Of a stretch of DNA of 64,000 bases, positions 4,501 to 34,400 are shown piece by piece. This stretch comes from Prorocentrum cordatum (lineage: Eukaryota > Sar > Dinophyceae > Prorocentrales > Prorocentraceae). The stretch covers positions 548,501 through 612,500 of the forward strand of contig CAUYUJ010000658.1 in assembly GCA_963575745.1 (NCBI GenBank), in the 5' to 3' direction. Both the position numbers and the translations under genes were made by a program. The notes under the pieces are model-generated. The model was not told the origin of the DNA. It searched no databases and was given only the letters and a program-made list of their open reading frames with translations. Position 1 is the first letter of the stretch, and each line of letters begins with the position of its first letter.

Positions 4501-4785
4501 CGGTAAGGAAGGTTGACGGTTTACCGCCGGCGCCCAGTGTGGGTGGTTTTGCGGAAAATTGAAGGGTATTTGACAATTCATTTTGAGAAAGCAGTTTTTT
4601 CGAACCTGTAGTGGGTTATGGCGCGTCCGCCAGTAAAATTTTCAGGCCCATAGGTGAAGTATTACTATTGAAACACTTGGGGGAACCGACGTTGGATAAA
4701 AACAGAAAAACGTGATTTTTCGAGTTTCTCAGGTCTTGCTCTAGACGCTTTCTACATGCTCACCGAGGAGCGCCGTGTGAGAGAA

Positions 4786-4856
4786 GAGCTCTACGAGGGC
4801 CCCGGCGGTAACCTGGTTGACGGCTTACCGCCGGTTCCCAGTGCCTCGTAGAGCTC
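4786..4856. repeat. Extended palindrome: nested inner and outer inverted repeats
   Basis: The outer arms GAGCTCTACGAGG (4786-4798) and CCTCGTAGAGCTC (4844-4856) are perfect reverse complements, 13 bp each. Nested inside are CCGGCGGTAA (4802-4811) and TTACCGCCGG (4825-4834). The whole 71 bp block can fold as one interrupted hairpin. The same layout recurs at 16701-16771 and, with one outer and one inner mismatch, at 36636-36705. It is also reconstructed across the non-autonomous element insertion (left arm at 9440, right arm at 11660). Confidence 0.85.
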
Positions 4857-6177
4857 TTCGGCATCGATGAGCTAGAGGAATTCCGGCGCGGGGTGGAGCT
4901 AGTTGGCCCACCCGGCCGGGGCGGACAAATTGGTGACTTTTGGTCGGTTTTGCGAAAATTTGAAAGATATTTAACAATTTATCTTGAGAAAGCAGATTTT
5001 TGCGCGTCCCATTGACATATAAACTCCTCACTGACAGCAGCCCAGCTCTCCCGATGTATTTTCTTATGAGTTGACTTCCGGGAACTGAGCGAATATGAAC
5101 ATCGAAAAAGTCGAAAATCAAGATTGTCGAAAAATTTATTTCATGCCTCTACTTTGATTCTCAGCACTCTACGAGGTTCCCGGCGGTGACTAGGCAGACG
5201 GTTTACCGCCGGCGCCAGTTGGCGGACCCGGCCAGAAAAGAAGATGTGATGACTTTGGGTCGGTTTTGCTAAGATTTAAAAGATATTTCACAATTCGTTT
5301 TGAGAAGGCAGATTTTTTCGCACCTGTAAACGACTATCAGGGCCTCTGCGTCTTAATATGAGCTCTGTAGGCGCACATTTACTCGCAAAATATTTGGGGG
5401 AACCAACTTCATGTCGACATAAAAAAACATGAATGGTCACTTTTTCGAGAAATGCCGCCAGAAGCTCTCTCTTCCGACTCTCAGCTCTCTTACGCGCTCT
5501 ACGAGGTTTCCGGTGGTGACCAGGTTGACGGTTCACCGCCGGCGCCAGTTTTGGACGCTACGAAGTACCTCGTAGAGCTCTTCGGCATCGATGAGCTAGA
5601 GCAATTCCGGCGCGGGGTGGTCGACACGACCAGAAGGGACACTGTGACAACCTGAACTCGGTCTGCTGCCCGATCTAGAATCGCGAAACTATTCGCATTG
5701 TTCGAGTCATCTTGAGAGGTGTCGGTTTTCTTTACTTAACTCGGGCCGTAGGGGGGCTACAGTGCTGGTAGTCACAGGAATCGATTCGGAGATCAGGCGC
5801 GTCCGCCTGTCGAATCCAGAGCTCTAAACTCGCTCTGCTGCCCGAACTAGGTCCGCGAAACTATTCGTATTGTTCGAGTCATCCTGAGAGGTGCTGTTCG
5901 TTTTCTGCACTTAACTCGGGCTTAGGGGTCTCCAGGGCTGGTAATCACAGGAATCGATTTCGAGACATCAGACGCGTCCGCATGTTGCATTCAGAGGTCT
6001 GAACTCGGTCTAATACAGAGCTCGTACAAAAGACAATCCAGAAGCATTGGGGGCGTTCGGCTGTTGCATCGAGAGGTCTGAAATCGCTTGGGCTGAAAAA
6101 CTATTCGTTCTCCACAATTTGTTTTCGACATTATATATTGTCAGGAAGCTCTACGAGTCCCCCGGCGGTAAGAAAGG

Positions 6178-8841
6178 TTGACGGAGGATAGATATATCTT
6201 GAAGGAGAAGTTGGAGGAGCATGTTAAGGGGAAGGTGACATCACAGCGTAAGAGGGAGGAGAACAGCAACTTGATGGAGGAAATCAGGAGGAAGGCGGAG
6301 GAGGAGATCAAGGGTGGCCAGATCATTCGAAGTATTACGATGTCGATATGTTGTGCAGCGAGGGCTCGTCTTCGAACGCGACGGGCAACAGGACCGGATC
6401 GCGTACCTTGTGAAATGCTCAAGCTTCTCCCATGGTGCACAGTTCGGCACATCCAACAGATCTTCGACTCTCTTTTGAGGCTGGCTGTCCAGTACCCTGT
6501 TCGATGGAGGGACATTCTTATTGCATACATGCCTAAACTAAAGGGGATCACGAACTTGGCGGATGCTCGACTCTTGTGCTTACAGAATAGCATAACTCGC
6601 TGGTTCTCGGCGTGCGTAGTTATCCTGGTGGAGCAGCATGTGGAAGAGTCTAAGCTATTTTATCCTCTGGGCCTCTATGGGTTCCGTCAGGGTCACAGCA
6701 CATCCCATATCACGAATAGCCTTACTAACATGTGTATGCACGGGGACAAGTGGGGGAAGCGTGAGTGTCTGTACGTTGCGGACATGGACATATACCAGGC
6801 CTTTGACAACTGCACGATACAGAACGTTCATAAGGGTCTTGAGCATGCACGTGTCCCTGCGTATTTACAGCACGCGTTTCTGGATCCGTTATCGCACAGC
6901 ACGGGCTGCCTCTACTATGACGGGTTGGAGATTGATAACATCCAGTGGGACACCTGTATTAGGACTGGAGGTCCAGAAGGGCCCTTGGGCTTTAACCTCA
7001 TTATTGCTGCCATGTGGGGTGACGTTATTCATAATTGGGACGTTCAGGGCATGGGGTATGCGGTAGATTTCGGTACGGAGCATCGGTCGGTGGTGAATCA
7101 TTTTATCTGGGCAGATAACGTGTACCTCGTCAGTCGTAGCCGTGAGGAGCTTACTCGTATGGTAAGAGACTTGACACTTCCACTTTACAACTTCTCGATG
7201 CGATGGAAACCCACATCGCTGAAGTACATGGTGTGCGGAGCTCCTGCTGTCTTGGATGAGGACGGGAATATCCCGCGTTCGATGGATCTTAAAATACCGA
7301 TCTTCTCAGATGCATGTGACGGGAGAAATGCAGTGCAGCAGATTGATGAGTTATGTTACCGTCGAGTTGTTTCTATGGACGTACTGGGCACGCAGCTGCA
7401 TAGTGAATATAACTGTTCTGTACATCGCGATGTTTCTTTTCGCCTAGACTGTGCTCGTCGCGCATTTTACTCTCAGGCAGGGTATTTCAGGTCGCATTGT
7501 ATTCCTCTCAAGGATAAGCTGCGGAGATACCAGGACAGAGTCCAGAGCCTGGCTCTGTATGGTATGGAGACCACCACTGCAGATTCTTATACTCTCTCGT
7601 TTCTCCATTCCTTCGAAGGGAAATGCCTGAAGATGATGATCTCTTCTCGAAAAGGCCCGACGGAAACGGAGCAAGCCTATCAGCAGAGGAGATATCATGT
7701 CGCACGGGAACGTTTCTTGAAGGCTGGGTACTCCTCTCTTGTCCAGCGTTATCTGATATTGCACTGGAATTTCGCAAAAGACATTGCAAGTTTCGCAAAT
7801 GGCATGATTGTTGAGAAAGCGATTGACTTGAAAGCGGCGGAGAGGACATGGCGCGATTCCCGTATGGCGAGTTTATGTTTTGGACCGTACACTGACCGCA
7901 CTCGTACACTTATGAGCGAGACGATGAGACACTTTGGCAACTGGTCGGAGGCCTCTTCTTACAAACGTCGCTGTCGAGGTACGGAGAGTATTGGACAGAG
8001 ATCATGGCAATATACATTAGCTGAGTTTTTCGGAGATGATTGGTGGATTCATTTCACAGGCTCCCAGCTTGGATTTATGCAGTACGCCACGCACCTTTGT
8101 ACTCATAGCATGCTTCAATGTTTCCAGGAGGTGTCGACGTGCGGACCTGTGAGTTCGCCCGCATATTTGGCGCCCTCCGAGCATGGTGAAATCCAGGTGA
8201 GCACGGATGATAGTCCGATGGCTGCTGAGAAACTTGCAAAGCGCATCGCTCTTCATAATATGAAAGCAACCCGTTGGAACCTGGAGGCCCCTGGAATCCC
8301 TCTGGAGGTGGTGGGTGACTCGCTTCTCGTGGTTAGCTGGGCTACGGGACGGTGGCGGGCAGATAATAGATCATATGCGGATAGAATATCAAAAATTATC
8401 AATACGCTTGATGGGCTTTGTTGCAGCTATAATATACGACCTCCAGCGCCGGGTATGGATCTTATTCGTCATGATTTTCGGGAGTGGAACACTCGTGCCG
8501 ACGTTCTAACACACCAGGCCCGAGAGGGCCAGATTTCTAGTTCAGAATGTAGTCCGTATACACATGATTATGAGACAGAATTTTACGTTGCTGCTGCTAT
8601 TCGGGCTGGTTTCGATGGCGGCGTGTCGTCTGAGGGATGTGGGTGCGGTTGCTGGATAGACATAGGCCTCAAACCTCGGTATTGGGATCGACGGGACCCC
8701 GCTCAGCTGATATGGAAGTCAGTTTTTGAGAGGGCTTGGCTTATTTCTCCGACCACAACTGTTACTGATACAGAACTCAGTGCTTTGGAGTGCATCGTGA
8801 CTGCGCTCCCACAGGCAGTTCTATGGTTATCACAGACTTGA
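6178..8841 (+). CDS. Reverse transcriptase-RNase H polyprotein of element 1 (5' truncated)
   Basis: This is an uninterrupted frame of about 885 codons entered from the insertion junction; no ATG lies before the RT domain, so the start is not native. RT motifs in order are ARARL...ATGPD, MPKLK, ADMDIYQAFDN (motif A), RTGGPEGPL (motif B-like) and WADNVYL (motif C, 7108-7128). WADN replaces the usual FADD or YADD. A thumb-like region follows, then RNase H-like motifs: GDSLLVV (Asp at 8317), WNTRADVLTH (Asp at 8500), FDGG (Asp at 8614) and TDTELSALE (Glu at 8773). That order is permuted relative to canonical RNase H. It should copy element RNA at a nicked target, but the missing endonuclease suggests a dead copy whose frame has stayed open, so the insertion is probably young. 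Confidence 0.9.
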   Translation: MTEDRYILKEKLEEHVKGKVTSQRKREENSNLMEEIRRKAEEEIKGGQIIRSITMSICCAARARLRTRRATGPDRVPCEMLKLLPWCTVRHIQQIFDSLLRLAVQYPVRWRDILIAYMPKLKGITNLADARLLCLQNSITRWFSACVVILVEQHVEESKLFYPLGLYGFRQGHSTSHITNSLTNMCMHGDKWGKRECLYVADMDIYQAFDNCTIQNVHKGLEHARVPAYLQHAFLDPLSHSTGCLYYDGLEIDNIQWDTCIRTGGPEGPLGFNLIIAAMWGDVIHNWDVQGMGYAVDFGTEHRSVVNHFIWADNVYLVSRSREELTRMVRDLTLPLYNFSMRWKPTSLKYMVCGAPAVLDEDGNIPRSMDLKIPIFSDACDGRNAVQQIDELCYRRVVSMDVLGTQLHSEYNCSVHRDVSFRLDCARRAFYSQAGYFRSHCIPLKDKLRRYQDRVQSLALYGMETTTADSYTLSFLHSFEGKCLKMMISSRKGPTETEQAYQQRRYHVARERFLKAGYSSLVQRYLILHWNFAKDIASFANGMIVEKAIDLKAAERTWRDSRMASLCFGPYTDRTRTLMSETMRHFGNWSEASSYKRRCRGTESIGQRSWQYTLAEFFGDDWWIHFTGSQLGFMQYATHLCTHSMLQCFQEVSTCGPVSSPAYLAPSEHGEIQVSTDDSPMAAEKLAKRIALHNMKATRWNLEAPGIPLEVVGDSLLVVSWATGRWRADNRSYADRISKIINTLDGLCCSYNIRPPAPGMDLIRHDFREWNTRADVLTHQAREGQISSSECSPYTHDYETEFYVAAAIRAGFDGGVSSEGCGCGCWIDIGLKPRYWDRRDPAQLIWKSVFERAWLISPTTTVTDTELSALECIVTALPQAVLWLSQT

Positions 8842-9125
8842 TAGTTGCAGCTTTTCTTATTTCATTGTTCTTCCTCATACTATGATATACTCAGCTTCGC
8901 TGGGACTTCTCTATTTTCTCTTGCATGTTTAGTTGACTGCACTTTGATTCATTTCTGTGTGCGTTTGCTCGTTCGCTCATATTTGTGATTGATGATTCAT
9001 CGCAGCTTCGCTGCTCTGGGTTGTCTTGACTTTAGGTTCGAATAAGAGCTTGCGCTTCCTGATGACACCTGACCTCATGCTTGCTCGTGGCCCTAGGGCC
9101 AGTAGGAGCCTCGCAAAGCCGCAAA
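6185..9125 (+). mobile_element. 5'-truncated LINE-like retrotransposon, element 1
   Basis: The element is bounded by a 15 bp target-site duplication, AAGAAAGGTTGACGG, at 6170-6184 and 9126-9140. The tandem copy of this locus at 24238-24252 holds the uninterrupted site, which fixes both ends. It enters the coding sequence directly, without endonuclease domain or 5' leader, as expected from incomplete reverse transcription. A 280 bp 3' untranslated region follows the ORF and ends in a short A-rich tail (GCAAAAAG). The insertion interrupts a palindromic box inside its loop. Confidence 0.9.
8842..9125 (+). other. 3' UTR of element 1 with CAGC-hairpins
   Basis: This non-coding tail holds two copies of CAGCTTCGCTG, near 8893 and 9003. 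Each is a perfect 4 bp stem (CAGC/GCTG) with a three-base loop. The same motif recurs in the tails of the other elements, so it may be a recognition structure for the element's own reverse transcriptase. It ends with GCAAAAAG at the target junction. Confidence 0.7.
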
Positions 9126-9140
9126 AAGAAAGGTTGACGG

Positions 9141-9471
9141 TTTACCGCCGGCGCCCAGTTGGTCGACACGACCAGAAGGGACAATGTGACAACTTTTGGT
9201 CGGTTTTGCTAAGATTTGAAAGATATTTGACAGTTCATTTTCAGAAACCATATTTTTCGCATGTGGACGACTGAGGGCCTCTGCACCTTGATATGAGCTC
9301 TATAGGCGCACTTTTACTATCGAGACACTTGGGGGAACCAGCGTTTATGTCGACATGGAAAAAACAAATTCTGGCTTTTTCGAGAAATGCTTCCAGAAGC
9401 TCTCTCTTTCGATTTGGAGCACTCTTACGCGTGCAAGGAGCTCTACGAGGTTCCCGGCGGTGACCAGGTTG
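9141..9471 (+). repeat. Satellite block 2 between element 1 and the non-autonomous element
   Basis: This is one palindrome cassette (TTGGTCGACACGACC, GGTCGGTTTTGC, ACTATCGAGACACTTGG, GGAGCTCTACGAGG), almost identical to 24253-24566 of the tandem duplicate. It holds the right arm of the box broken by element 1 and the left arm of the box broken by the non-autonomous element. No gene is present. Confidence 0.85.
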
Positions 9472-9777
9472 CTGCTGTCCCTCCTCGGGATCTCAGCGGC
9501 GACCTGGCCCGTCGGAGGCCTCCTCGAGCGGCATCGTGCCGTGCCTGGCGTTTGGTTCTCTTTACCGTACACGGTGCTTCAGTGTCTGTTTTGCCTGAGT
9601 ACCGTACACTCTTATTGATTGTCGAAGGCCTGTCCACGCCCATTGTCGTCGGAGTGCATATAATTGTTGAGATTGTCGGAGTATCGTTGGAACAGCATTT
9701 ACCTTGGTTATCTCAACTGTCCATCTAGTTATTGCGTGTGATTTGCTTTCTTGTAGAGCGAGTCCACGTTTTTATAG

Positions 9778-11030
9778 ATGGAGTTCGTTTCATATGAATT
9801 GTCAGGCGCGGATTTTCTTGCTTCAGATTTGACAGATACGGCGTTGTTTACTTCCGAGTCTCTCGCTTGTTTGTCTGCTCGTTTGTCTACGGTCGAAGTG
9901 TGTGTTAGTGATCTATATTGCCGTGTTCGCCCTTCGTACGGAGGTGACTCTCGCATGCATGAGCGAGACCAGCTGTATGGGCATGGTGTCAAAGTTTCTC
10001 AATCGAAGTTGCGCCGCCTGCGGGCGAAACGTGTCAGGTATCGTTTGTGGTCCACGGCCCGGGGGCCAGATCCGTCGTGCCTTGTTCGCGCGGGCATTTT
10101 CGCGCCCAGATGTTATCGGAATTTTTGCTCGGGCGATTCTGAGGAAGAGGAGTGGGTTGAGGACACTTGTGGAGCACAGACTGATATGGATGCTGTTGAA
10201 TTGGCTGGCAACTCTTTGCGTTCGCAGTGTTCCGATTGTGGGACTCAGACACATCCCTGTGTTCACATCGAGTGTGGGACTCAGACTGATCTTTGTGTTC
10301 TCTTTGTTGGTGAGGAGGAGAAGGAGGAGTGTCATCGAGTGCGCGCTGATCAGGGTGATGCTTCTGCAGTTGGGAGTTCCTGTGCAGTCGGGAGTTCCAC
10401 TGTTCGGAGTGCAGTAGGAAGTTCCACAGTTCGGAGTTCCGCTGATGCAGTTGTGGATGCAGTTGGGAGTTCAACAGCTGGGAGTTCTGCAGTTGGGAGT
10501 ACCGCGGTTTGGAGTTCAGCTGATGCTGTGGAAGCAGTTGCTAAGATGGAGCAGTTGAGAGTACCGCAGTTTTGAGTACAGTTGATGCAGTCGGGAGTTC
10601 CAGTGCAGTCGGGAGTTCAACACTTGGGAGTGCAGTAGGAAGTTCCACAGTTCGGAGTTCCGCTGATGCAGTTGAGGATGCAGTTGGGAGTTCAACAGCT
10701 GGGAGTTCTGCAGTTGGGAGTTCAGCTGATGCAGTAGGGAGTTCCATGAATGGGAGTTCTGCAGATCGACCGAGTGAGACACGCTCTGAGTGCCAAGCTG
10801 CCAGGGACTGGGCCCTTGCCGGTGTCGATGTAAGGGCTCTTTGGCTTGAGCTACACCGACTCCCGACACAGGAGCTTCAGCGTAGGACTGAGGCTCTTCA
10901 TGCATACAGGCTGCAATTGGGAATTGAACGTTCCGAGGAGGATAATTCGCAACAAGGGGGTCCTCAGAGTTCTACTTCCAGGAGTGCATTGACGCGGAGC
11001 GGCATGAAGCATCGGAAACGGCACAGATGA
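9778..11030 (+). pseudogene. Broken ORF of the non-autonomous element (Ser/Val-rich repeat protein)
   Basis: The frame opens with MEFVSYELSGAD at 9778 and runs about 265 codons to a stop near 10575. The remainder (AVGSSTVRSS repeats, then a C-terminus ending KHRKRHR) lies in another frame to 11030. The intact counterpart is the 494-residue ORF of copy 2. The break comes from deletions corresponding to roughly 30122-30169 and 30193-30380 of copy 2. Visible features are a basic stretch (KLRRLRAKRVRYR), cysteine clusters with CGTQTD-like repeats (here partly decayed to CGAQTD and CGTQTH) and Ser-rich repeats. No enzymatic domain is seen. Confidence 0.75.
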
Positions 11031-11620
11031 TGCACATGTGATTGATCCTGCACGCTTGATTTGTCATTGCGTTGCCTTTCTTCATGCCTGTGTGTGTGTT
11101 GTCGGGCATGCGCGTGTGTTGAATAAGAGCTTCGCTTGTTCCCTCAAAGTAGGTCATTCGTTGCTTCCTTGATTTGAGTGCTCATTGACCGTTGAACGTG
11201 ACTTTCCGTGATTTGTCACGTGGTGCCTCAAAGTAGGCCTTTGATCTGGTCGATACTACGGTTACCTCAAAGAGGACTGGAGTGTACTCGTCATTCTAGT
11301 TGTTAGTTTTGTGTTTGTCTCAGTGGTGTTGAGACGGTAATCGCTGTTTTAAACCAGTGGTTACTGTATGTTCTCTCACTGCTTTTATTTTCAGTGGTGC
11401 TGAGACGGTAATCGCTATATGTGGTTACTGCATGGTCTCGCATTGCTTTCAATCTTATAATCTTTGAGTTGCATTCTCGTGTATTGTATACTTGTGCATT
11501 CCTGTGCAGCTTCGCTGTTTGTGCACTTGTACTTAATCTTTGCAGCTTCGCTGCTTAGGTTCTTTGTGTTTCGGCCTGCTCCCATGGGAGCTCGAACCGG
11601 CCTTCGCAAAAGACGCAACA
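11031..11620 (+). other. 3' UTR of non-autonomous element copy 1
   Basis: This non-coding region contains GTGTTGAGACGGTAATCGCT-like direct repeats (near 11327 and 11398) and two CAGCTTCGCTG hairpins near 11510 and 11542. It ends in the A-rich tail CGCAAAAGACGCAACAG. Confidence 0.7.
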
Positions 11621-11630
11621 GACCAGGTTG

Positions 11631-17461: not shown

Positions 17462-17463
17462 CT

Positions 17464-22000: not shown

Positions 22001-23355
22001 ATCGCCAGTGGCTCTTCGCCAAACATGTTGTGAGCACAATCCATGAGGAACATAGTCGGGTGGATGAGGACGCACTCAGTCAGGGCATTCTTTATCATGA
22101 GCCACGAGATCCTGATATTTTTGGTGGTTCGCAGCGTTTCTTGGAGTTATCGGTTCCCTCGCCTACCCCGAATGCCAGACAGCTCAACAGTTCGTGTAGG
22201 AGAAAGGCACAGAGCGCATCTTCCTTGGAAAGTAGATCAGTTCGCAGACGTATATCGGAGAACACGGCATATGAGCATCACGATTCACAACATGTACATG
22301 AGCCTGTTCGTAAGCGGGTACGCCATACCTATGCACGGGAGGAGGAAGGAGGATTGCCCACTGCCAGTATGCAGAGCGCCTTGACGATGATGCACGCGTC
22401 GGGGGAGTGGACTGAGCAGCGTGACGTACATGTTAGAGCTCTCCCTGGGGGCCGAAGGTTTACTAGAGCCTGTCGTCATCGAGTCTTGACGGGACTCAGG
22501 CCTTGGTTCGAGGTCTTCGAGCACACGCGCGGGGTTCATTGGGATCGCACGATGGTCTGGAATGAAACTGGCTGGCGTTCTTTCCTGGTGGGTACCCTGG
22601 CCGCCCTGGACTTGGATGATCTTCTCGAGTTCTGCCTTCTTCGGGATCCCTTCACGGGTGAGTTCAAGCAGGAGGAGGAGGGGGAGGAGAAGTCTGAGGA
22701 GCAGCAACGACGGGAAAATGAACGGGTGGCGAAACGACTGGCCGCGATAAATGATGATGAAACCACTTGGCGTGGGGAAGGGGGTGGATATGGCTTGGAG
22801 CTCCGTGGGGATAGCCAGTGTGTTGTGCGCTGGCTTAATGGAAGATATCGCTGTCATAATGAAGTATACCGCCGCACGATCAAGGGTATGCAGAACCGCC
22901 TCCACAGAATGAGTGAGGACCATCATCTTGTCACGGCTGAAGTGGGAAGGGATATGTGGAAATGGGTGTATAGGGAGGGCAACGATGAGGCGGACTATGA
23001 GACACATCTTGCACGTGAGGGTAAAGTAACTTCTGATGTTCGTTGGAATCATAACACTCTTTATCATATTAGATCGGGTCATTATATTGTTCGTGCACTT
23101 AGAGGAGCTTTTGACGGTGGGCGGTGTGAGCGTGGCACCTCGTGTGGCTGGGTTATTGATGTTTATCTTGTTCCCTCTCTTCCTCCTCACCAGCTTCCCC
23201 CTGGACTTGTGCAGGGTGGATGGCACCCTGGAGTTGGCCGCAGAGGTTTCATGATCCCTAGCCATTGCACGATCACACAGGCTGAGTTGGCAGCTGCACA
23301 TTCTCTTCTCAATGGCATTGCCGAGATGTGTATACACGTACAACTTGGCAGGTGA
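19087..23355 (+). CDS. ORF2 of element 2: endonuclease-reverse transcriptase-RNase H
   Basis: The coding sequence starts immediately after the ORF1 TGA, in frame. The APE-like endonuclease begins at once with GGWNVRRL (Asn codon 19114), followed by VQES (Glu 19195), SVYLPH, SADANVE (Asp 19558, Asn 19564), DYLAV and SDRKLL (19912). The last replaces the SDH triad motif, so the catalytic His is missing. The first ATG (19150) lies after the endonuclease Asn, so ATG initiation would lose it; readthrough or reinitiation is more likely. RT motifs are ARSRLREGRATGADGV, LMPKNPK, ASADIEKAFDN, RTGSLEAPLLF and LWADNILL (WADN at 21355-21366). The C-terminus carries GDSQCVV (Asp 22810), YREGNDEAD (Asp 22993), FDGG (Asp 23113) and TITQAELAA (Glu 23284). 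It would carry out target-primed reverse transcription. Confidence 0.9.
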   Translation, partial: RCPASVGGWNVRRLGRYTSECMNHIAELKISIVGVQESQFLHDLDLADAGWDIHRSADEGENVGRRAAILCRGVWRHLLIDVVCGRRWVIAIFRKLIFVSVYLPHKESERGAQGEARRSPEGFLASFKLYTDVLSDLVAHVSAAKKRFHIEEVVISADANVEVFPHHRINGVEVTGEAVNGPIRKRGRSSGGDESRANRMREMCSGAFLTTMGALKLQLANTFGTRQPTWRHNSSTYEHVYDYLAVPASWMTPEVTCSWVVPSQVPRSEATERTFSDRKLLCADMPAQHAQLRYRRRPQLKTWKLQPGFELQQTAGLERAICQPELVNQIHTDVGFEVMTQSILEGASETLDISRSRGQPVSDYPRYSEEDLLIKEEFFKVRKRWRVARYGGANVGQEEYEGVQEEYKGTARRWRRVRKRHDRACELYRIRDGVRRRPVITHMYVDGVLTRDQEKWIEGLRRHGLLRYSCDPHRQDTNACLDELKNQCKALRDSGEPHRNPINMGLLLEARSRLREGRATGADGVTSSVLKALPWEALRHILTLFRLLYDQKHVSPKSWREILVCLMPKNPKARDFEETRALSLLSHFGKWYSSCLCVLLEHRVRQAAPPGCNLYGFIAGHKCYEVTAPLKRLAQHGVVWGKEESLYLASADIEKAFDNFTVRCAAEALLFHHVHPALVYAVFESYACNTAEISFQQCSTTISWDTCIRTGSLEAPLLFVAQTLRMLAPVTAGWRQSGYGVRLTDEASNLLVNHWLWADNILLAAASRRELTHMLEDLTGVLHRFGFNWKASSMEFLACGVQGPLQDIRLPVPGLLPAEMGRKRSRGASQSAAGPSEEMIVRQVERMEVLGTLLDVRFQDHDDIKHRLEKARRVFMSEISFYSSPVVPLRCKFQRYDSRVRSCFLYGLEGTTLDSSSIQQIHAAEGNFLSTMRRLKKKITESWGEYWGRRIKGGRRLLKWARKPSMVQLALHRQWLFAKHVVSTIHEEHSRVDEDALSQGILYHEPRDPDIFGGSQRFLELSVPSPTPNARQLNSSCRRKAQSASSLESRSVRRRISENTAYEHHDSQHVHEPVRKRVRHTYAREEEGGLPTASMQSALTMMHASGEWTEQRDVHVRALPGGRRFTRACRHRVLTGLRPWFEVFEHTRGVHWDRTMVWNETGWRSFLVGTLAALDLDDLLEFCLLRDPFTGEFKQEEEGEEKSEEQQRRENERVAKRLAAINDDETTWRGEGGGYGLELRGDSQCVVRWLNGRYRCHNEVYRRTIKGMQNRLHRMSEDHHLVTAEVGRDMWKWVYREGNDEADYETHLAREGKVTSDVRWNHNTLYHIRSGHYIVRALRGAFDGGRCERGTSCGWVIDVYLVPSLPPHQLPPGLVQGGWHPGVGRRGFMIPSHCTITQAELAAAHSLLNGIAEMCIHVQLGR

Positions 23356-23585
23356 CTGTTTGTGTATAATATCTGCATAGCTCCGCTGTTGTAAGATACA
23401 TGCTTAGCCCCACTGTTTCTTGATGTGTGTATATTCCTGTGCAGCTGCGCTGTTGTATCATATATGCACAGCTACGCTGACTTGTATATCGCACAGCTCC
23501 GCTGTTAGTGCTTAGGTTGCCTGTAGGTAATCCTACCGCTGGCCCTGCCCCCTAAGGGGGCTCGAATCGGGCCCCGCAGACCGCA
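23356..23585 (+). other. 3' UTR of element 2 with CAGC-TNC-GCTG hairpin series
   Basis: Within about 140 bases there are four or five short hairpins: ATAGCTCCGCTGT, CAGCTGCGCTG, CAGCTACGCTG and CAGCTCCGCTG, plus a degenerate TAGCCCCACTG. The stem is constant while the middle loop base varies (C, G, A, C), which suggests the structure is kept rather than the sequence. The tail ends CCCCGCAGACCGCA before the duplicated target. Confidence 0.75.
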
Positions 23586-24566
23586 GACCAGGTTGACGGT
23601 TCACCGCCGGCGCCAGTTTTGGACGCTACGAAGTACCTCGTAGAGCTCTTCGGCATCGATGAGCTAGAGCAATTCCGGCGCGGGGTGGTCGACACGACCA
23701 GAAGGGACACTGTGACAACCTGAACTCGGTCTGCTGCCCGATCTAGAATCGCGAAACTATTCGTATTGTTCGAGTCATCTTGAGAGGTGTCGGTTTTCTT
23801 TACTTATCTCGGGCCGTAGGGGGGCTACAGTGCTGGTAGTCACAGGAATCGATTCGGAGATCAGGCGCGTCCGCCTGTCGAATCCAGAGCTCTAAACTCG
23901 CTCTGCTGCCCGAACTAGGTCCGCGAAACTATTCGTATTGTTCGAGTCATCCTGAGAGGTGCTGTTCGTTTTCTGCACTTAACTCGGGCTTAGGGGTCTC
24001 CAGGGCTGGTAATCACAGACATCGATTTCAAGATATCCGACGCGTCCGCATGTTGCATTCAGAGGTCTGAACTCGGTCTAATACAGAGCTCGTACAAAAG
24101 ACAATCCAGAAGCATTGGGGGCGTTCGGCTGTTGCATCGAGAGGTCTGAAATCGCTTGGGCTGAAAAACTATTCGTTCTCCACAATTTGTTTTCGACATT
24201 ATATATTGTCAGGAAGCTCTACGAGTCCCCCGGCGGTAAGAAAGGTTGACGGTTTACCGCCGGCGCCCAGTTGGTCGACACGACCAGAAGGGACAATGTG
24301 ACAACTTTTGGTCGGTTTTGCTAAGATGTGAAAGATATTTGACAATTCATTTTCAGAAACCAGATTTTTCGCATGTGGACGACTATGAGGGCCTCTGCAC
24401 CTTGATATGAGCTCTATAGGCGCACTTTTACTATCGAAACACTTAGGGGAACCAACGTTTATGTCGACATGGAAAAAACAACAAATTCTGGCTTTTTTTC
24501 GAGAAATGCTTCTAGAAGCTCTCTCTTTCGATTTGGAGCACTCTTACGCGTGCAAGGAGCTCTACG
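23586..24566 (+). repeat. Satellite array, block 4
   Basis: Positions 23596-24252 match about 5520-6184 of the first tandem copy. Positions 24253-24566 match about 9141-9446. Because element 1 is absent here, this block preserves its empty target site at 24238-24252, with an intact palindromic box (about 24230-24263). The block stops at GAGCTCTACG where element 3 begins. No gene is present. Confidence 0.9.
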
Positions 24567-27500
24567 TCTGGAGGGCAGGTAAAGACAAAACAACTCAAGT
24601 TATACAACGAATTCAAATGCATGGGAGAAGTGTTGCTTTGGTGGGTCTTCAAGAGTGTCTGCACCTAACCCAGAGTATCATTTCAAAAGAGGGATGGATA
24701 TTATTGCGGAGTAAAGACAAGCTAGCGGGTTTCATGTTCCGAGCGAGTGTTCCGATTAGATACACTGACAACCAGTCAAATCGTGTTGTGCTCATCGTAG
24801 TCGGCAAAATCATCGTTGTCTCGGCCTACTTTCCACATGAGGGGAGAAGAAATGCGGTGGCGGAGTTCAATGCCTTAGCCAACTTGGTGAGAGCGAAGAT
24901 CCAGGCGGCACGTGTGCAGTTTGAGCAAGAGGGGGGGAAAGACTTTGAGGTGGCCATCTTGACAGATGCGAATGTTGAGTTGCCTGCACATGTACGGGGT
25001 GAAGGAGGGAAGGAGGTCACGGGAGGGTGTGCGCACGGACTTGCAGGTGGGACAGGCGGTGGGAGGCTTCGAAACGGAGAGGACGAGGAGGAAACGTTTG
25101 ATGCGCGAAGCCCTGGTCGACCTGATTGTTGAGCTGGATCTTGTGGCGACGAACGCGTTTCAGGAGCGGCTCCCGACACATTTCACTCGTGCACATAAGT
25201 CACCGCAGGTGCTCGATTACATCTTTGCTCCAGCGTTGTGGGGAGAGGCTAGAGTTCAGTGGCAGGACGTCAGGGACACAGGCAATGAGACGTCGGATCA
25301 TGCGGCGGTGTTGCTGGAGTTGCCCGTCTCGACCCGCCCGGCCCCGAGAGCAAAAACGAGGCGACCCATGCGCCCCAAATGGGAGCCAGAGACCGAGCCA
25401 GGCCGCAGATTGTTCTCAGCCCAGAACTACGACAGGTTAGTCACGGAGCGGGGGGAAGGGGACTACGTGCCACCAGGTAAGTTGTCCGAGGTGATGCTAG
25501 GTGCGGCGGAGGGGATCCCGACGAAGCAGATGGTTCGAGAGGTGCCTCAGAAGTCAGATAAACACAAAGCCCTGGAAAGAGCCAAAAGGTTGAAACAATG
25601 GGAGGACGAGGAGGGGAGGAAAGAGATAAACCGACAGTTGAGAAAAGAAAAGAATGCCCTAAAGTGTGCCATGCTTAAGTATGCCAGTATATCAAAGAAG
25701 AAGACCAGGACCGAGATTATCACTAAGTTAAACATCAATGGGAGGATGGAGGAGGATCAAACAAAATGGAGTTCGGCACTGTATGAGCATACCAAGGGGA
25801 AGTTTGCGAATGAGCAGATCAGGAGGGAGACGGAGGAGGTGATGGAGGAGCTCAGGAACCAGGCCCAGACGGACACCATCAGGTTGATTTTCGACTTTAG
25901 TGCGATGATGGATGCCAGATCCAGACTGTCGGTGGGCAAGCAGACGGGGGAGGGCGGGATCACGGTTAGCATGCTGAAGACTCTAGGCTTCGGGGACCTT
26001 CAGGAGATATTTAAGACGTTTTCGGCGATCTATGAGGGGCGGGAGTCGACGCCAGAGGACTGGCGTATGATAGTACTCACGCTCATCCCCAAGAGTGAGA
26101 AGATTACGAGTTTGGAGGATACTAGAGCGATTGCAGTTTCTTCATGCTTAACTAAGTGGTATTCGCTTTCCCTGGTTGTGGTCCTGGAGAGGTTCCTGGC
26201 CAAAAACTTGGACCCCGAGATGAATGTATATGGGTTTATGTCTGGGAGAAAAACGACGGAGGTCACCTCGATGATTAAACATATCGGTCAACATGCTTCG
26301 ATTTGGGGGAAGGGCCAGAGCTTTTGGCTCTGCAGTTGTGATATTCTGAAAGCGTACGTTCACCTTCGACTTACGACATGTGTGAAAGCAATGAGAAAGC
26401 TTGGGGTTCCTTCTTCTTTTCAGTATGCTATCTTGGAGCCGATGCTGAGAAACACGGCGACGGCAAATTTCCAGAGTACCCAGTGCGAAACAGTGCCGTG
26501 GGACACCTGTGTTAGGACGGGACAGGTTGAGAGCCCCATCTTATTTGTGCTAGTCACGATTGCGATGATTGGCCCGACAGTGCACCCGTGGAAAGAGAGG
26601 GGCGGCTACAATATCGAGAGACAGAGAGCGTGCGCATATTCGATCGAGGCTAAAGTTGGAGCCATCTCTCGCACTATCGAGGGCTCCCAGGAGATGGAGG
26701 TGCACCAGACTCTCAGTCATGCGATATGGGCGGATAACTTTTTCATCTTCGCCCAAGGCGATAGACAGGAGGGAAAGAAGATGGTTTCCACGATGATGAA
26801 GGAACTTACGATATCCATACGTGAATGGGGTTTCGAATGGAAACCCAGTTCGGTTGAGTTAGCGACGTTTTGGATAGATTTTGATGCAGATCCGTTGGAA
26901 GTTCAAATCCCGACCAAATCTTTTGAACCAGTGACGAAAAGAGAGAGAACAGCGATCAAATCTTTTGAATCAGCTGCGAGAGTAACTTCATTGACAGGGC
27001 CAACACCACTTCCTCATTCGTATATGCCAGCGCCAACATCACTTCTTCATTCACGTTTGCCAGCACCGACATCACTTCTTCATTCGACATATCCGACAGC
27101 TACGCTGTGCAAGATATCCGACAGCTACGCTGAACAGACATATCAGACAGCTACGCTGAACAGAAATATGCCAGTTCCCCATTCGCCTTTGACAGCGCCA
27201 ACGACATTTCCTTATGCACATTTGCCAACGCCAATGCCAGCTGTTCATACTCGTGTGTCATCGTCGTCGTTGATAAGAGTGCCTGTTGTTCTTTCGCATT
27301 TGCCAGCGCCAACGCCATCTCTTCATACTCGTGTGTCTTCGCCGCCGTCGATAAGAGTGCCTGTTGTCTCAGCTTGTAGTGTGCAGCCTGTTGCCTCAGC
27401 TTGCAGTGTGCACGAATTGGCTGAGAATGCGGGTGCTGTTCAAACGATGACCGATCTGGCCTTGTCTCAGAATGCGGGTGCGGGCTCGTCCACCCATTTG

Positions 27501-28970
27501 GTGGAGACACTCTTCGTTCCGCGAGTGCAGGAGATTGCCTTCTTGGGTGTTCGGCTACACACTCGAATGAGGACCCACTTGGACGTGCAGTATCGGATTC
27601 AGAAAGCTCAGCATGCGTTCTGTCAAGACATCAGTTTGTATCGGTGTCGGTCGGTGCCCTGGACGGTGACATGGGATAAGTATGTGAGCAAAGTACAGGG
27701 CACTTTCTTGTACAGTGTTGAAGGATCGAGCATCGACAAATCGGCATTGCAAGATATTCATAAGTTTGAGGGACGTTGCTTGATAAAAATAGTTGGTGTA
27801 CGGAAAAAGGTCAATGAAACATGGGTCAGCTTCAATGTCAGAGCTTATAACTTTGCCAGGGAGAGGTTTCGGGAAAAAACACGCCAGCCTTGTAGAGTTG
27901 TACTTGCAGAAACAATGGGAGTGGAATAAGGATTGTTGCTCTTTCTTGAAGACGGCGGACATTGCGACAGGTGCTGCTTGCAGTCAACTGAATTCTGGAG
28001 CTTGGCGTGAATCAACAAGTGTGTGCCGCAGTTTTATGACAGCAAGGTTGGCGATGTTCCATGGTATGAAACGTTGGACGGAGAGACGGGACTTGTACAA
28101 TGACGCGATCAGGGTGTTGAGTAAAAGCTGGAAGAACCCAGAAGTGTCAGAAAAACGTCGGAGGATTGATTGCCAGACAATAGGTCAGACATCGTGATGA
28201 GTATTGGAAACACTTGAGACATGATTAGGGGACGCGGAAAGCATGGATTGAGCATATCAAACAAAGGACTGGACTTGCATTCGATCGACTTTTTAAGCAG
28301 GAAGAAGAAAAGCGTGTGGGACCAAACACTTGGGAGGAGGAGGAGGCACCAACACGGGCGGCGAATACAAAGCAGGCCAAGAGGCTCGCACATGTTTTCG
28401 CGACGATGACGGACTGGTGGGAGTACGAACAGGGGCTTGCGCGAGGTTTGCCAGTGGAGATCCATGGAGATAACATGGCCACGATCAAGTGGTTAAACGG
28501 GGAGTGGAAGATCCAAAACCGAATATATGCCAGACAGATTGCCGAACTACAAAATGAGTTTCACGAGTTGCATGAAGAGTTTAACTTTGTCGGAGCCAGG
28601 GTCGGAGGAGACATGGGTAATCATGTCTATCGGGAGGGAAATCAGAGGGCGGATGCATTAACTCACATTGCACGCGTCAGAGATATAGAATATGATAGGG
28701 CACACGAGCTACAGGGGTATGACCTTTATGCCCTTCGGGACGCTTTCGACGGTGGAGTCGATAAGGATAAAGCAGGAGCAGGCTGGTGGCTGGAGGGATT
28801 GATCAAAGCATCGGCATCTCATTCAATATATGGGAGCTTTGCCTTTCTGGATAGACCACAATGGGTGCTGATCAAATCGAAGGCGTTTGGCCTTCCCCCC
28901 AATATTCTGCCATGAACACTGAATTCGAAGCTTTATCGAGCCTCTGCGGGGCCATCTTTAGTGTAACCCG
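24567..28970 (+). pseudogene. Frameshifted endonuclease-RT-RNase H gene of element 3
   Basis: The homologous protein is spread over frames. The endonuclease N-half runs to about 25060 (LVGLQE, SAYFPHEG, LTDANVE). The endonuclease C-half, RT and linker run from about 25040 to 27929 (VLDYIF, ETSDHAAVLLEL, ARSRLSVGKQTGEGGI, LIPKSEK, SCDILKAYVHL, RTGQVESPILF, AIWADNFFIF at 26721-26750). The connection domain continues in another frame to about 28190, the RNase H motifs (GDNMATIKWLNG, YREGNQRADALTH, FDGG at 28745) in another to 28913, and the last helix (MNTEFEALSS) in yet another. There is also an in-frame TAG near 28226. Motif A has lost the Asp of FD (AYVHL). A Pro/His/Ser-rich insertion sits at about 26990-27490. 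It is not functional. Confidence 0.85.
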
Positions 28971-29052
28971 TAACTTCGCCCGTAGGGTTAGGCTTAAGAA
29001 ACGACCTGTGGCTGCTTTTGGCAGCCGTTGGACAGATCGCAAAAGGCAAAAT
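24567..29052 (+). mobile_element. Decayed LINE-like retrotransposon, element 3
   Basis: The right end joins ACCAGGTTG at 29053-29061, the usual target. The left end joins GAGCTCTACG, so about 15 bp of target (AGGTTCCCGGCGGTG, visible intact at 9447-9461) are missing, and a normal duplication cannot be shown. The element lacks ORF1 and the first endonuclease strand, so it is 5' truncated. It lies directly upstream of non-autonomous copy 2 and is absent from the equivalent place in the first tandem copy, so it arrived after the duplication. The tail ends GATCGCAAAAGGCAAAAT. Confidence 0.85.
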
Positions 29053-29367
29053 ACCAGGTTGCTGCTGTCCCTCCTCGGGATCTCAGCGGCGACCTGGCCC
29101 GTCGGAGGCCTCCTCGAGCGGCATCGTGCCGTGCCTTGCGTTTGGTTCTCTTTACCGTGCACGGTGCTTCAGTGTCTGTTTTGCCTGAGTACCGTACACT
29201 CTCATTGATTGTCGAAGGCCTGTCCACGCCCATTGTCGTCGGAGTGCATATAATTGTTGAGATTGTCGGAGTATCGTTGGAACAGCATTTGCTTTGGTTA
29301 TCTCAACTGTCCATCTAGTTATTGCTTGTGATTTGCCTTCTTGTAGAGCGAGTCCACGTTTCTATAG

Positions 29368-30852
29368 ATGGAGTTCGTTTCGTCTGAAGTGTCAGGCGCG
29401 GATACTCGTGCTTCAGATTGGACAGATACGGCGTTGTTTACTTCCGAGTCTCTCGCTTGTTTGTCTGCTCGTTTGTCTACGGTCGAAGTCTGTGTTAGTG
29501 ATCTATATTGCCGTGTTCGCCCTTTGTACGGAGGTGAGTCTCGCATGCATGAGCGAGACCAGCTGTATGGGCATGGTGTCAAAGTTTCTCAATCGAAGTT
29601 GCGCCGCCTGCGGGCGAAACGTGTCAGGTATCGTTTGTGGTCCACGGCTCGGGGGCCAGATCCGTCGTGCCTTGTTCGCGCGGGCATTTTCGCGCCCAGA
29701 TATTATCGGAATTTCTGCTCGGACGATTCTGAGGAAGAGGAGTGGGTTGAGGACACTTGTGGAACACAGACTGATATGGGTGCTGTTGAATTGGCTGGCA
29801 ACTCTTTGCGTTCGCAGTGTTCCGATTGTGGGACTCAGACAGATCCCTGTGTTAACATTGAGTGTGGGACTCAGACTGATCTTTGTGTTCTCTTTGTTGG
29901 TGAGGAGGAGAAGGAGGAGTGTCATCGAGTGCGCGCTGATCAGGGTGATGCTTCTGCAGTTGGGAGTTCCTGTGCAGTCGGGAGTTCCACTGTTCGGAGT
30001 GCAGTAGGAAGTTCCACAGTTCGGAGTTCCGCTGATGCAGTTGTGGATGCAGTTGGGAGTTCAACAGCTGGGAGTTCTGCAGTTGGGAGTACCGCGGTTT
30101 GGAGTTCAGCTGATGCTGTGGCATCGAACCCTGGCTGCAAGGACGAGGAGGAGGAGAATGTTCATAGTGAAGCAGTTGCTAAGATGGAGCAGGAGGAGGT
30201 GGCTGAGGAGGATTTTGTTCATGTTGGTGAGGGGGAGAAGGAGGAGTGTCATCGAGTGCACGTTGATCGGGGTGATGCTTCTCTCAGAATGAAGAGATAT
30301 TGTTTCAAACGAGCGGAGACTATCGAGAGTACAAAGTTGCACACTTCAGAATTGCATGCGACCAACGGGAGTGCGGTGGAGAGTACCGCAGTTTTGAGTA
30401 CAGTTGATGCAGTCGGGAGTTCCAGTGCAGTCGGGAGTTCAACACTTGGGAGTGCAGTAGGAAGTTCCACAGTTCGGAGTTCCGCTGATGCAGTTGAGGA
30501 TGCAGTTGGGAGTTCAACAGCTGGGAGTTCTGCAGTTGGGAGTTCAGCTGATGCAGTAGGGAGTTCCATGAATGGGAGTTCTGCAGATCGACCGAGTGAG
30601 ACACGCTCTGAGTGCCAAGCTGCCAGGGAGTGGGCCCTTGCCGGTGTCGATGTAAGGGCTCTTTGGCTTGAGCTACACCGACTCCCGACACAGGAGTTTC
30701 AGCGTAGGACTGAGGCTCTTCATGCATACAGGCTGCAATTGGGAATTGGAAGTTCCGAGGAGGATGATTCGCAACAAGGGGGTCCTCAGAGTTCTACTTC
30801 CAGGAGTGCATTGACGCGGAGCGGCAAGAAGCATCGGAAATCGCACAGATGA
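29368..30852 (+). CDS. 494-residue protein of the non-autonomous element (CGTQTD and Ser-rich repeats)
   Basis: ATG at 29368 opens a frame of 494 codons. An N-terminal region of mixed composition leads to a basic segment (KLRRLRAKRVRYR, about residues 78-90), an acidic patch (SEEEEWVED), then cysteine-containing repeats CGTQTDMG, CGTQTDPC and CGTQTDLC (about residues 131-172). Long Ser/Val/Ala repeats based on AVGSSTVRSS and AGSSAVGSS follow, with an acidic insert between them, then a C-terminus ending KKHRKSHR. No RT, nuclease or known fold is visible. TQT is the core of dynein light chain LC8-binding motifs, and the triple TQT is compatible with that, but this is only inference. It could be a divergent ORF1-like structural protein. 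It is not similar to ORF1 of element 2. Confidence 0.7.
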   Translation: MEFVSSEVSGADTRASDWTDTALFTSESLACLSARLSTVEVCVSDLYCRVRPLYGGESRMHERDQLYGHGVKVSQSKLRRLRAKRVRYRLWSTARGPDPSCLVRAGIFAPRYYRNFCSDDSEEEEWVEDTCGTQTDMGAVELAGNSLRSQCSDCGTQTDPCVNIECGTQTDLCVLFVGEEEKEECHRVRADQGDASAVGSSCAVGSSTVRSAVGSSTVRSSADAVVDAVGSSTAGSSAVGSTAVWSSADAVASNPGCKDEEEENVHSEAVAKMEQEEVAEEDFVHVGEGEKEECHRVHVDRGDASLRMKRYCFKRAETIESTKLHTSELHATNGSAVESTAVLSTVDAVGSSSAVGSSTLGSAVGSSTVRSSADAVEDAVGSSTAGSSAVGSSADAVGSSMNGSSADRPSETRSECQAAREWALAGVDVRALWLELHRLPTQEFQRRTEALHAYRLQLGIGSSEEDDSQQGGPQSSTSRSALTRSGKKHRKSHR

Positions 30853-31406
30853 TGCACATGTGATTGATCCTGCACGCTTGATTTGTCATCGCGTTGCCTT
30901 TCTTCATGCCTGTGTGTGTGTTGTCGGGCATGCGCGTGTGTTGAATAAGAGCTTCGCTTGTTCCCTCAAAGTAGGTCATTCGTTGCTTCCTTGATTTGAG
31001 TGCTCATTGACCTTTGAACGTGACTTGTGATCTGGTCGACACTACGGTTACCTCAAAGAGGACTGGAGTGTACTCGTCATTCTAGTGGTTAGTTTTGTGT
31101 TTGTCTCAGTGGTGTTGAGACGGTAATCGCTGTTTTAAACCAGTGGTTACTGTATGGTCTCTCGCTGCTTTTATTTTCAGTGGTGCTGAGACGGTAATCG
31201 CTATATGTGGTTACTGCATGGTCTCGCATTGCTTTCAATCTTATAATCTTTGAGTTGCATTCTCGTGTATTGTATACTTGTGCATTCCTGTACAGCTTCG
31301 CTGTCTGTGCACTTGTACTTAATATTTGCAGCTTCGCTGCTTAGGTTCTTCGTGTTTCGGCCTGCTCCCATGGGAGCTCGAACCGGCCTTCGCAAAAGAC
31401 GCAAAA
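30853..31406 (+). other. 3' UTR of non-autonomous element copy 2
   Basis: This region is equivalent to 11031-11620. It contains the repeated GAGACGGTAATCGCT motif and two CAGCTTCGCTG hairpins near 31294 and 31328, and ends CGCAAAAGACGCAAAA. Confidence 0.7.
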
Positions 31407-34400
31407 GACCAGGTTGACGGTTCACCGCTGGCGCCAGTGCCTCGTAGAGCTCTTGGGCATCCATGAGCTGGAGGAATTTCGGCGCGGGGTGGAGCTGGTA
31501 CCTCGTAGAGCTCTTCGTTAGCGATGAGCTAGAGGAATTCCGGCGCGGGGTGGAGCTAGTTGGTCGACGCGACCAGAAAGGACAAAGTGGTAACTTTTGG
31601 GTGGTTTTGCGAATATTTGAAAGATATTTGGCCATTTATTTTGAGAAACCAGATTTTTCGCACCTGTAAACTCTAAGCGCACTTTTGCTATCGAAACACT
31701 TGGGGGAACTAACTTCATGTCGACATCAAAGTCATGAATTATGATTTCTCCGTGAAATGATTTCAGAAACTCTATCTTTCGATTCTAAGCACTCTTATGT
31801 GAAAGGAGCTCTACGAGGTTCCCGGCGGTGACCAGGTTGACGGTTCACCGCCGGCGCCAGTGGGCGCTACCAAGTTTCGAAAAGGGACGAGATCATGCTA
31901 TGTGCGGCCTGGCTCATCCGATTCTGGAGCTCTAACCATTCGTTTGGGCTGATAATTGCGCAGAGCGAGCTTTGGGTTCCCGGCGGTGACCAGGTTCACA
32001 TGCAGAGGTCTGAACTCGGTCTGCTACTCGAGCTAGATCCGCAAAACTATTCGTATCGCGCAGATAATCTCGACAGGGGCTGTCCTTTTTCTGTATTTAA
32101 CTCGAGCTCTAGGGGCGCTGCAGAGCTGATACGCACAGGAACTAATACAGAATAATCAGGCGCGTTCGTCTGTTGCATCCACAGGTCTGAAGTCGGTCTG
32201 CTACTCGAGCTAGGTCCGCGACACTATTTGTATTGTTCGAGTCGCCTTGAGAGGTGCTGTCCGGTTTCTGTACTCAACTCGAGCTTTAGAGCTGATACGC
32301 ACAGAAACCAATCGAGAATAATCAAGCGCGTTCGTCTGTTGCATCCAGAGGTCTGAACTCGGTCTGCTACTCGAGCTAGGTCCGCGAAACTATTCGTATT
32401 GTTCGAGTCGCCTTGAGAGGTGCTGTCGGTTTTCGCACGTAACTCGGGCTGTAGGAGAGCTAGAGAGCTCATGCGCAAAGAAACTGATTCGGTATCATCA
32501 GGCGCGTTCGTCTGTTGCATCCAGAGGTCTGATCTTGGTTTGCTACTCGGGCTATCCGCTCAGGCTGAAAAACTGTTTATTCTCTGCTGATTCTTTGGAC
32601 GTAATATATGGTCAGGAAGCTCCACGAGTCCCCCGCGGTAAGAAAGGTTGACGGTTTACCGCCGGCGCCCAGTTGTGGTAACTTTGGGTGGGTTTTGCAA
32701 TCTTTGTGCAAAAATGTAAAGTTCGTTTTGGGAACCGTTATTTTTCTCACCTGTAGTGGGTTCTGCGGCGTCCGCCAGTGAAATTCTCAGGTCCGTAGCT
32801 GCAATATTACTATCAAAGACTTGAGGGAACCGTCGGCCGTTTCGAGTATCTTGACACGCGTTGACGGTTTTCTGTACTGCTCAAGATTTACATACAGAGC
32901 TGCTTCTTACAGAGACCGATTCAGAATCATCAGGCGTGTTTGTCTGTTCCATCGAGAGGTCTGAACCCGCTCTGCTACTCGTAGAGCTCTTGGGCATCGA
33001 TGAGCTAGAGGAATTTCGGCGCGGGGTGCAGCTAGTTGGCCAACCCGGCTCCGATGGACCATGTGTGAACTTTGGGTCGGTTGGACGAACTTTGTGAGAG
33101 ATTTGAACATTCGTTTTGAGAACCGGTATTTTTCGCACCTGTAGTGGGTTATTCCGCGCTCGCCAGTCAAATTCTCAGGTCTGTAGGTGCAGTTTTACTA
33201 TCAAAACACTTGGCGGAACCGTCTTTGGATACAAACATAAAAACGTGATTTTTCTAGTTTTTTGGGTCTCGCTCCAGACTCTTCCTGCATGTGTACCGAG
33301 GAGCGCCATGCGAGAACAGAGCTCTACGAGGGTCCCGGCGGTGACCTGGTTGAGGCTGTAGCAGAGCTATAGAACTCGTGCGCACAGAAAACGATCCAGG
33401 AGCATCAGGGGCCTTCGGCTGTTCTATCGAGAGGTCCGAAATCGCTTGGACTGAAACACTATTCGTTCTCTGCATTTTTTCGACATTTTATATGGTCAGG
33501 AAGCTCTGCCAGTCCCCCGGGGGTAAGGAAGGTTGACAGTTTACCGCCGGCGCCCAGTTTGCTGACTTTTGGTCGGTTGAAAATAACACGTAGAGCTCCC
33601 CTGCAAGTTGTTGCTGGAAGCTTGAGAGTAATTCCGGGGCGCTGGAGAGCTAGTTGGCAAGAGAAATCTCGACGGACCTTTTGCTGACTTTTGGTCGTTT
33701 GAACATTCTATTCTCGAAACTCAACCATTCGTGAGAGCTCTAGTATTTCGTCCCGTGACATTCGATCTTATTCCCGCTCGCCATCTCGATCTCGGCTCGA
33801 TCGGGTACCTTTTACTGCCAAAAAGCGTCCAGGCGGGATCGGCCGTTTCGAGTCATATTGATACGCGCTGTCAGTATATTGGATTTAACTCGAGATACAG
33901 GACAGCTACACAGCTGGTAAGCAACCTTATCCATTCAGAATCATGAGGCGCGTTCGTTGCATCCAGAGGTCTGAACTCGTCTGCTAGCCGAACTAGGTCG
34001 GCAAACCTATTCGTATTATTCGAGTCATCTTGACAGGCACTCTCGATTTTTTGTACTTAACTCGAGCTATAGGTCAGCTACAGAGCTAATACTTGCAGAA
34101 AACGATTCAGAAACATTCGTCGCGTTTGTCTGTCGAATCCAGATCTCTGAACTCGGTCTGCTGCCCGATCTAGAATCGCGAAACTATTCGTATTGTTCGA
34201 GTCATCTTCAGAGATGTTGCCGGTTTTCTGCACTTAACTCGAGCTGTAGAAGGGCTACAGTGCAGGTGGTCACAGGAATCGATTTGAAGACATCAGGCGC
34301 GTCAGTCTGTCGATTCCAGAGCTTGGAACTCGGTCTGCTGCCCGAACTAGGTCCGCGAAACTGTTCGTGTTGTTCGAGTCATCCTGAGAGGTGCTCTCGG

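Follow-up and report, generated by a model that had tools for sequence, protein, structure and literature searches.

Why do all the retrotransposons in one 64-kb stretch of a dinoflagellate genome sit in the same short palindrome? The stretch comes from Prorocentrum cordatum (contig CAUYUJ010000658.1, C658:548501-612500, called the window in what follows, from an assembly of 4,128,499,153 bases), and it contains an array of repeated modules, which mostly end in a palindromic sequence that we call the box. Within the array lie three families of long interspersed nuclear elements (LINEs), named E1, E2 and E3, along with two copies, NA1 and NA2, of a non-autonomous (NA) element. Our reading, to which we give a probability of roughly 0.8, is that three divergent LINE families and an NA derivative enter at one point of what is likely the 3' hairpin of a Helitron2-like element, by nicking with their own predicted endonuclease of the apurinic/apyrimidinic endonuclease (APE) type.

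A single insertion point in the palindromic box

E1, E2 and E3 all matched RVT_1 in Pfam, and a tblastn search of the 64-kb window with proteins P0001-P0007 (E 1e-3) found no reverse transcriptase (RT) sequence outside these three elements (coordinates in Table 1). Their junction sequences agree. To the right of E1, E2 and NA, the flank begins directly 3' of GGCGGT, and to the right of E3 one base later; since the right flanks start exactly after GGCGGT, one strand was likely cut opposite the end of this motif, 2 bp inside the left arm of the box. The other strand was likely cut after GGTTG, giving a 10-bp duplication, or after GACGG, giving one of 15 bp. The 3' ends are also alike, reading CGCAAA in E1 (where the exact end is ambiguous by a few A, owing to the A-rich tail), CCGCA in E2, GCAAAAT in E3 and GACGCAA(A/C)A in NA, the two NA copies ending in GACGCAACA and GACGCAAAA.

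The array holds segmental duplications, so that paralogues within the window provide empty sites for these insertions. For E2, 3374-5527 pairs with 15295-17461 and 5518-6184 with 23586-24252, while the empty site of E1 is the paralogue 24238-24252 and that of E3 is the intact NA1 5' junction, near 9440-9471. Compared with this empty site, 15 bp of target are missing on the 5' side of E3, and its 3' flank is ACCAGGTTG, which is also the 5' junction of NA2. NA1 and NA2 are 97-98% identical in their three longest aligned pieces and represent one insertion that was duplicated along with flanking DNA (97.7% over 5.2 kb), leaving four independent insertion events in the window, all at one point of the box. 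Some 39 box contexts, each 16 bp long, make up 2.6% of the 23,571 bp of non-element array, and four of four insertions would fall within them by chance with a probability of ~5e-7, an estimate in which the boxes were counted by hand and the pattern was chosen post hoc.

A preliminary description of this DNA had proposed that all retrotransposons of the window enter the palindromic box, in four independent insertions within 25 kb if the NA pair is counted once, and both statements agree with the junctions, the empty sites and the duplicated NA flank. It had placed the insertions between the arms of the box, which is right to within two bases, one cut lying 2 bp inside the left arm; the 3' tails, which it had called different between families, are more alike than this suggests. 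It had further likened the box to a safe harbour, a notion that copies flanked by unrelated sequence across the genome would count against, and here too the genomic flanks of E1, E2 and NA favoured site specificity, as follows.

A first look at the genome gave 592 candidates for NA, 187 for E1 and 153 for E2, and the 40 copies scored in each family showed 95-100% identity. Flanks were examined at 30 NA loci and 30 E1 loci, among which were two and one of the window's own copies, respectively, and at 20 E2 loci (of 39 scored outside the window). The right arm of the box forms the 3' flank of NA at 28 of the 30 loci, target plus right arm flank E1 at 26 of 30, and E2 is followed by the same starting base of the box at 20 of 20. 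For NA, 5' flanks were fetched at 20 loci; the left arm and target were present at 12 of these, and at L039 the flank reads AACCAGGTTG, with no left arm. The last 150 bp of E1 are 99-100% identical in the 40 scored of its 187 candidates, and a relative of E1 in the protein database, P0008, has an ORF2 of 1286 aa that is 98% identical; judging by these identities, E1 looks recently active. Two further E1 relatives in the protein database, at 45-46% identity, are named Prorocentrum cordatum.

The same flanks bear on a different account, in which LINEs insert widely and only the copies in the array survive, or in which copies are passengers of array duplication. The NA1 and NA2 pair is indeed a case of one insertion duplicated with its flanks, and one of the 30 NA loci and three of the 30 E1 loci repeat the flank of another locus. 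However, the first 100 bases 3' of the element are distinct among 29/30 NA and 27/30 E1 loci, and the single-base register, kept by E2 at all 20 loci examined, is not only unexplained by this account but contradicts it. We consider it very improbable.

Target choice and the predicted endonuclease

The ORF2 proteins of E1, E2 and E3 share 28-34% identity between families in local alignments. A profile built from four element proteins and compared with solved structures matched L1 ORF2p chains best (8uw3 at E 2.5e-14; the highest-ranking chain, 8c8j, carries the name RNA-directed DNA polymerase), followed by R2. In 14 of 14 aligned proteins (E1, E2, E3, P0007-P0013 and P0016-P0019) the RT active-site motif is ADN, not ADD, and the residue before it is W in 12 of the 14, Y in P0013 and F in P0019.

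E2 shows no visible 5' truncation and carries open reading frame (ORF) 1 followed by ORF2 (19126-23352 as listed), in which a predicted APE-type endonuclease precedes RT and RNase H. A single TGA at 19084-19086 separates ORF1 from ORF2, both being in the same frame. By sequence, the endonuclease region had no Pfam match and weak matches in the PDB. Its AlphaFold2 (AF2) model (predicted template modelling score, pTM, 0.76; mean predicted local distance difference test, pLDDT, 69) most resembles the TRAS1 endonuclease 1wdu (E 8e-9), with the R1Bm endonuclease 2ei9 and APE1 close behind, and the residues of the catalytic positions (N, E, Y, D, N) are retained. The predicted fold, modelled for E2 alone, supports an APE-type endonuclease in this family; the 5' truncation of E1 in the window leaves that copy without the domain.

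According to our reading, the element's APE-type endonuclease would place its nick on the bottom strand, across from GGCGGT^(G/A)A, and the freed 3' end would prime reverse transcription, starting from the CGCAAA-like RNA tail. The top strand would then be cut after GGTTG or GACGG, or the 5' end would be joined with a deletion, as in E3.

Boxes occur in two subtypes, which have the outer arms GGCGGT/ACCGCC in common and differ in loop length and in one inner arm pair. Long loops are AAGAAAGGTTG and its kin, and short loops are GACCAGGTTG and ACCTGGTTG; the exact long-loop box pattern has 18,321 copies in the genome, versus 0 for a reversed-pattern control. The families use these subtypes differently: long loops were found at 22 of 26 E1 insertions (sorted by hand; 19/26 by a stricter script), at none of 28 NA insertions and, by eye, at none of 20 E2 insertions. 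The difference between E1 and NA gives a Fisher p of 1.9e-11, which, being hand-sorted and including a few duplicate loci, is strong rather than exact. Since this split exists despite the common outer arms, it is likely that the families read the sequence or length of the loop, rather than the arms alone.

This bears directly on the idea, raised in the preliminary description, that the endonuclease recognises its target, perhaps as a hairpin. The genomic flanks of E1, E2 and NA favour the first half of the proposal, and the predicted fold in E2 is of the APE type. For the second half, recognition of an extruded hairpin or cruciform instead of linear sequence, one can cite the conserved arms, an inner pair that mostly co-varies (GGTGA/TTCACC, GGTAA/TTTACC), the folding of three boxes at z -2.2, -3.3 and -3.35, the position of the cut at the border of arm and loop, and the fact that loop length, too, differs between subtypes. 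Yet co-variation of the inner pair breaks down at 5182, at 17117 and in the reverse box at 39161, a terminal hairpin belonging to the module would account for the arms, and families facing the same outer arms differ in their use of long loops as described above. Recognition of the hairpin as such is therefore not supported by the comparison of loop subtypes, and we regard it as unlikely.

The modules that carry the box

Neither the choice of box subtype by family nor the mobile look of the modules had featured in the preliminary description. In most array modules the start reads A[AC]CTCGTAGAGC and the 3' end is the box followed by CGCC(C)AGT. Their inverted repeats are asymmetric, the 5' copy being A[AC]CTCGTAGAGC and the 3' copy, just before the box, GCTCTACGAG[GT]. 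The 5' and 3' repeats change together between A-type and B/C-type modules, with exceptions at 13191 and 32977, as judged without a module-by-module table. Two A-type modules, the first running from AACTCGTAGAGC to CGCCCAGT, are nested in the same C-type module, and their flanks join up both at 13348, in the intact paralogue, and in the copy starting at 32977; in the paralogue the C-type flanks CACCTGT / AGTGAGT / TATTCCGCG are continuous except for one base. The rejoined flanks indicate that the nested modules lack a target duplication; one T in these insertions could belong either to the element or to the target. T precedes 18 of 20 module starts, several of them paralogues; in the remaining two, also paralogues, it comes one base later. 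Hairpins also form at the 5' ends, with z -3.5 to -6.0 at four A-type ends and weaker values, z -1.2 to -2.4, at six B/C-type ends.

PMC3627910 defines Helitron2 elements as having terminal inverted repeats that are asymmetric, together with hairpins at the 5' and the 3' end. The repeats are given there as 8-15 bp, with the 5' copy 0-2 bp from the end and the 3' copy 20-30 bases from the end, upstream of the 3' hairpin, and Chlamydomonas elements are described as inserting after T runs without target duplication. The nesting without duplication, the repeats, the hairpins and the T before the module start match this description, which makes it likely that the box forms the hairpin at the 3' terminus of non-autonomous, Helitron2-like elements. 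The likeness to Helitron2/Helentron non-autonomous elements, as these appear in PMC3627910 and PMC5148889, covers asymmetric inverted repeats, both hairpins, the lack of target duplication, insertion beside T and 5'-truncated copies. The modules differ from them in the loop of the palindrome, which is conserved and used by LINEs, and in the 3' repeat, which lies 43-45 bases from the module end, not 20-30.

The position of this repeat speaks against our reading, as do a number of other observations. On the side of the modules, the first base is A in 14 of 18 aligned starts and G or C in 4, three of the six B/C-type 5' ends fold barely better than shuffles (z -1.2 to -1.6), and no Rep/helicase domain was found among the window ORFs given to Pfam (not every ORF was, and there was no genome-wide Rep/Hel search). 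On the side of the LINEs, the case for E3 comes from a single copy, that of the window, and the SDH motif, present as such in E3 and P0007, is SDR in the window copy of E2. The genome-wide samples comprise E1, E2 and NA and hold best-matching copies only, with exceptions among them. At NA locus L013 the 3' flank is GACCAGGTTG and then the 5' end of another element, at L028 it is ACCAAGGTTG and then other sequence, and NA 5' ends are unassigned in 5 of 20 loci (L041, L048, L050, L053 and L058). Of the box target, E1 loci L064 and L073 retain just the beginning; L060 lies in LINE-like coding sequence and L085 within an NA element, the last two judged by eye.

In an account without a transposon terminus, the box would be no more than a satellite motif, such as a palindrome bound by a protein, and the modules would have spread by unequal exchange. 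The lack of a Rep/helicase match among the ORFs searched fits this account, as do the many tandem and truncated modules and the several array junctions inside boxes. It is harder to square with two clean nested insertions whose flanks rejoin in an intact paralogue, with 5' and 3' repeats that differ together by module type apart from the two exceptions, and with the 5' hairpins, and we consider it rather doubtful. The word satellite, used in the preliminary description, is probably wrong: the units, whose ends are Helitron2-like, behave as mobile modules would.

Several array junctions that contain no LINE (3357; 12196 and 31982; 13551 and 33337; 40225) lie at GGTTG or close to it within the box loop, where the top strand would be cut, and these could be repaired breaks.

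Table 1. Positions within the window of the elements, target sites, boxes and modules discussed in the text.
Feature	Position	Strand	Basis or remark
Target duplication of E1, AAGAAAGGTTGACGG	6170..6184 (left), 9126-9140 (right)	+	Junction sequences
E1, 5'-truncated LINE	6185..9125	+	Pfam RVT_1 E 1.4e-8; target duplication on both sides
E1 ORF with RT and RNase H	6178-8841 (as listed)	+	
NA1, non-autonomous copy 1	9472..11620	+	Target duplication GACCAGGTTG, 9462-9471 / 11621-11630
E2, longest LINE	17462..23585	+	Target duplication GACCAGGTTG, 17452-17461 / 23586-23595
E2 endonuclease domain (predicted)	19096..19995	+	AF2 model, best PDB match 1wdu
E2 empty site	5518..5527	+	GACCAGGTTG within intact box
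E3, 5'-truncated, frameshifted LINE	24567..29052	+	Inserted at NA2 5' junction
NA2, non-autonomous copy 2	29062..31406	+	3' target duplication GACCAGGTTG, 31407-31416
Short-loop palindromic box, module 3' end, example CCCGGCGGTGACCAGGTTGACGGTTCACCGCCGGCGCCAGT	31821..31861	+	Hairpin fold z -3.35
Long-loop (A-type) box, example GGCGGTAAGAAAGGTTGACGGTTTACCGCC	34749..34794	+	
First nested A-type module, in C-type module	36859..37726	+	AACTCGTAGAGC...CGCCCAGT, no target duplication
Second nested A-type module, same C-type host module	37734..38908	+	No target duplication
5'-terminal hairpin of A-type module, includes 5' inverted repeat ACTCGTAGAGCTTCC	37734..37786	+	DNA fold z -5.96

Beyond the array, the window holds short tandem arrays with 21-, 9- and 81-bp units (42233-42805, 45345-45512, 53686-55121, 58291-58552 and 63259-63409) and long ORFs without a Pfam match, for example 58477-61896.

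Non-autonomous riders and a possibly renewable target

The NA element has no RT match in its ORF, which is 494 aa long in NA2. It shares the 5' end of E2 (91% identity over the first 59 bp), its 3' end is similar, and in P0017, a protein from the database, an NA-like N-terminus is fused to an RT. Given this fusion and the 59 bp in common with E2, NA likely derives from an element of the E2 clade and is moved in trans, and under our reading the proteins of that clade would mobilise it.

Two NA retrocopies, at loci L051 (position 893, +) and L055 (position 1002, -), start with the 21-base sequence CCGTAGCCATTTTGGCTCAAG, which we take to be the dinoflagellate spliced leader and which, with the two E1 relatives named Prorocentrum cordatum, points to a dinoflagellate host. 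Judging by these copies, NA RNA is able to undergo trans-splicing before reverse transcription. At L055 the leader is joined to the module end that precedes the box, GAGCTCTACGAGG, and the order is leader, GAGCTCTACGAGGTTCCCGGCG (module end) and then the NA element. Because the leader adjoins a module end, the L055 RNA likely began within the array, was trans-spliced upstream of the box and was then retroposed.

Each insertion would leave (G)ACCAGGTTG at its own 5' junction, through which a second LINE could enter; such an arrangement is seen for E3 at NA2 and likewise at L013. Since another mobile element would carry the box along, the supply of landing pads would be renewed and host genes spared. 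We place at even odds the broader picture that Helitron2-like elements serve as self-renewing landing pads, in which at least three anciently diverged LINE lineages specialise on the Helitron's terminal hairpin and split the loop subtypes between them, while NA riders and spliced-leader-capped RNAs use the same site, amounting to hyperparasitism by one class of transposon on another's replication terminus.

APE-type LINEs of the TRAS1, R1 and Tx1 kind resemble the elements described here in their APE-type endonuclease (predicted, in E2), fixed target, target duplications and 5' truncation. The present elements differ from them in that the target is probably a Helitron2-like 3' hairpin, in that one target is common to three lineages ~30% identical, with subtype preferences among E1, E2 and NA, and in an RT motif of (W/Y/F)ADN and an RNase H motif order that appears permuted. 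The Xenopus Tx1L element is reportedly found in Tx1D, as one LINE family at a fixed site of a DNA transposon with terminal inverted repeats; here, by contrast, several LINE families use a probable rolling-circle element as their target. Transposons are listed among the known targets of site-specific LINEs, and target-specific APE elements are placed in the Tx1 and R1 clades, in PMC4640811. A narrow literature search found no report of site-specific LINEs in dinoflagellates. That LINEs target transposons is thus already known; this target, and the sharing of it by several lineages, is new.

The array and its genomic relatives give a clear example, present in many copies, of LINEs that have specialised on the probable end of another transposon, and the 18,321 long-loop boxes, together with the many near-identical element copies, amount to a natural experiment in the evolution of endonuclease sequence preference. 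Helentrons are described, in PMC5148889, as having gained an endonuclease domain through retrotransposon insertion. Should the box prove to be a Helitron terminus, two classes of transposon would be linked through it, and habitual LINE insertion at this point may, as a conjecture, have been a route to the Helentron endonuclease.

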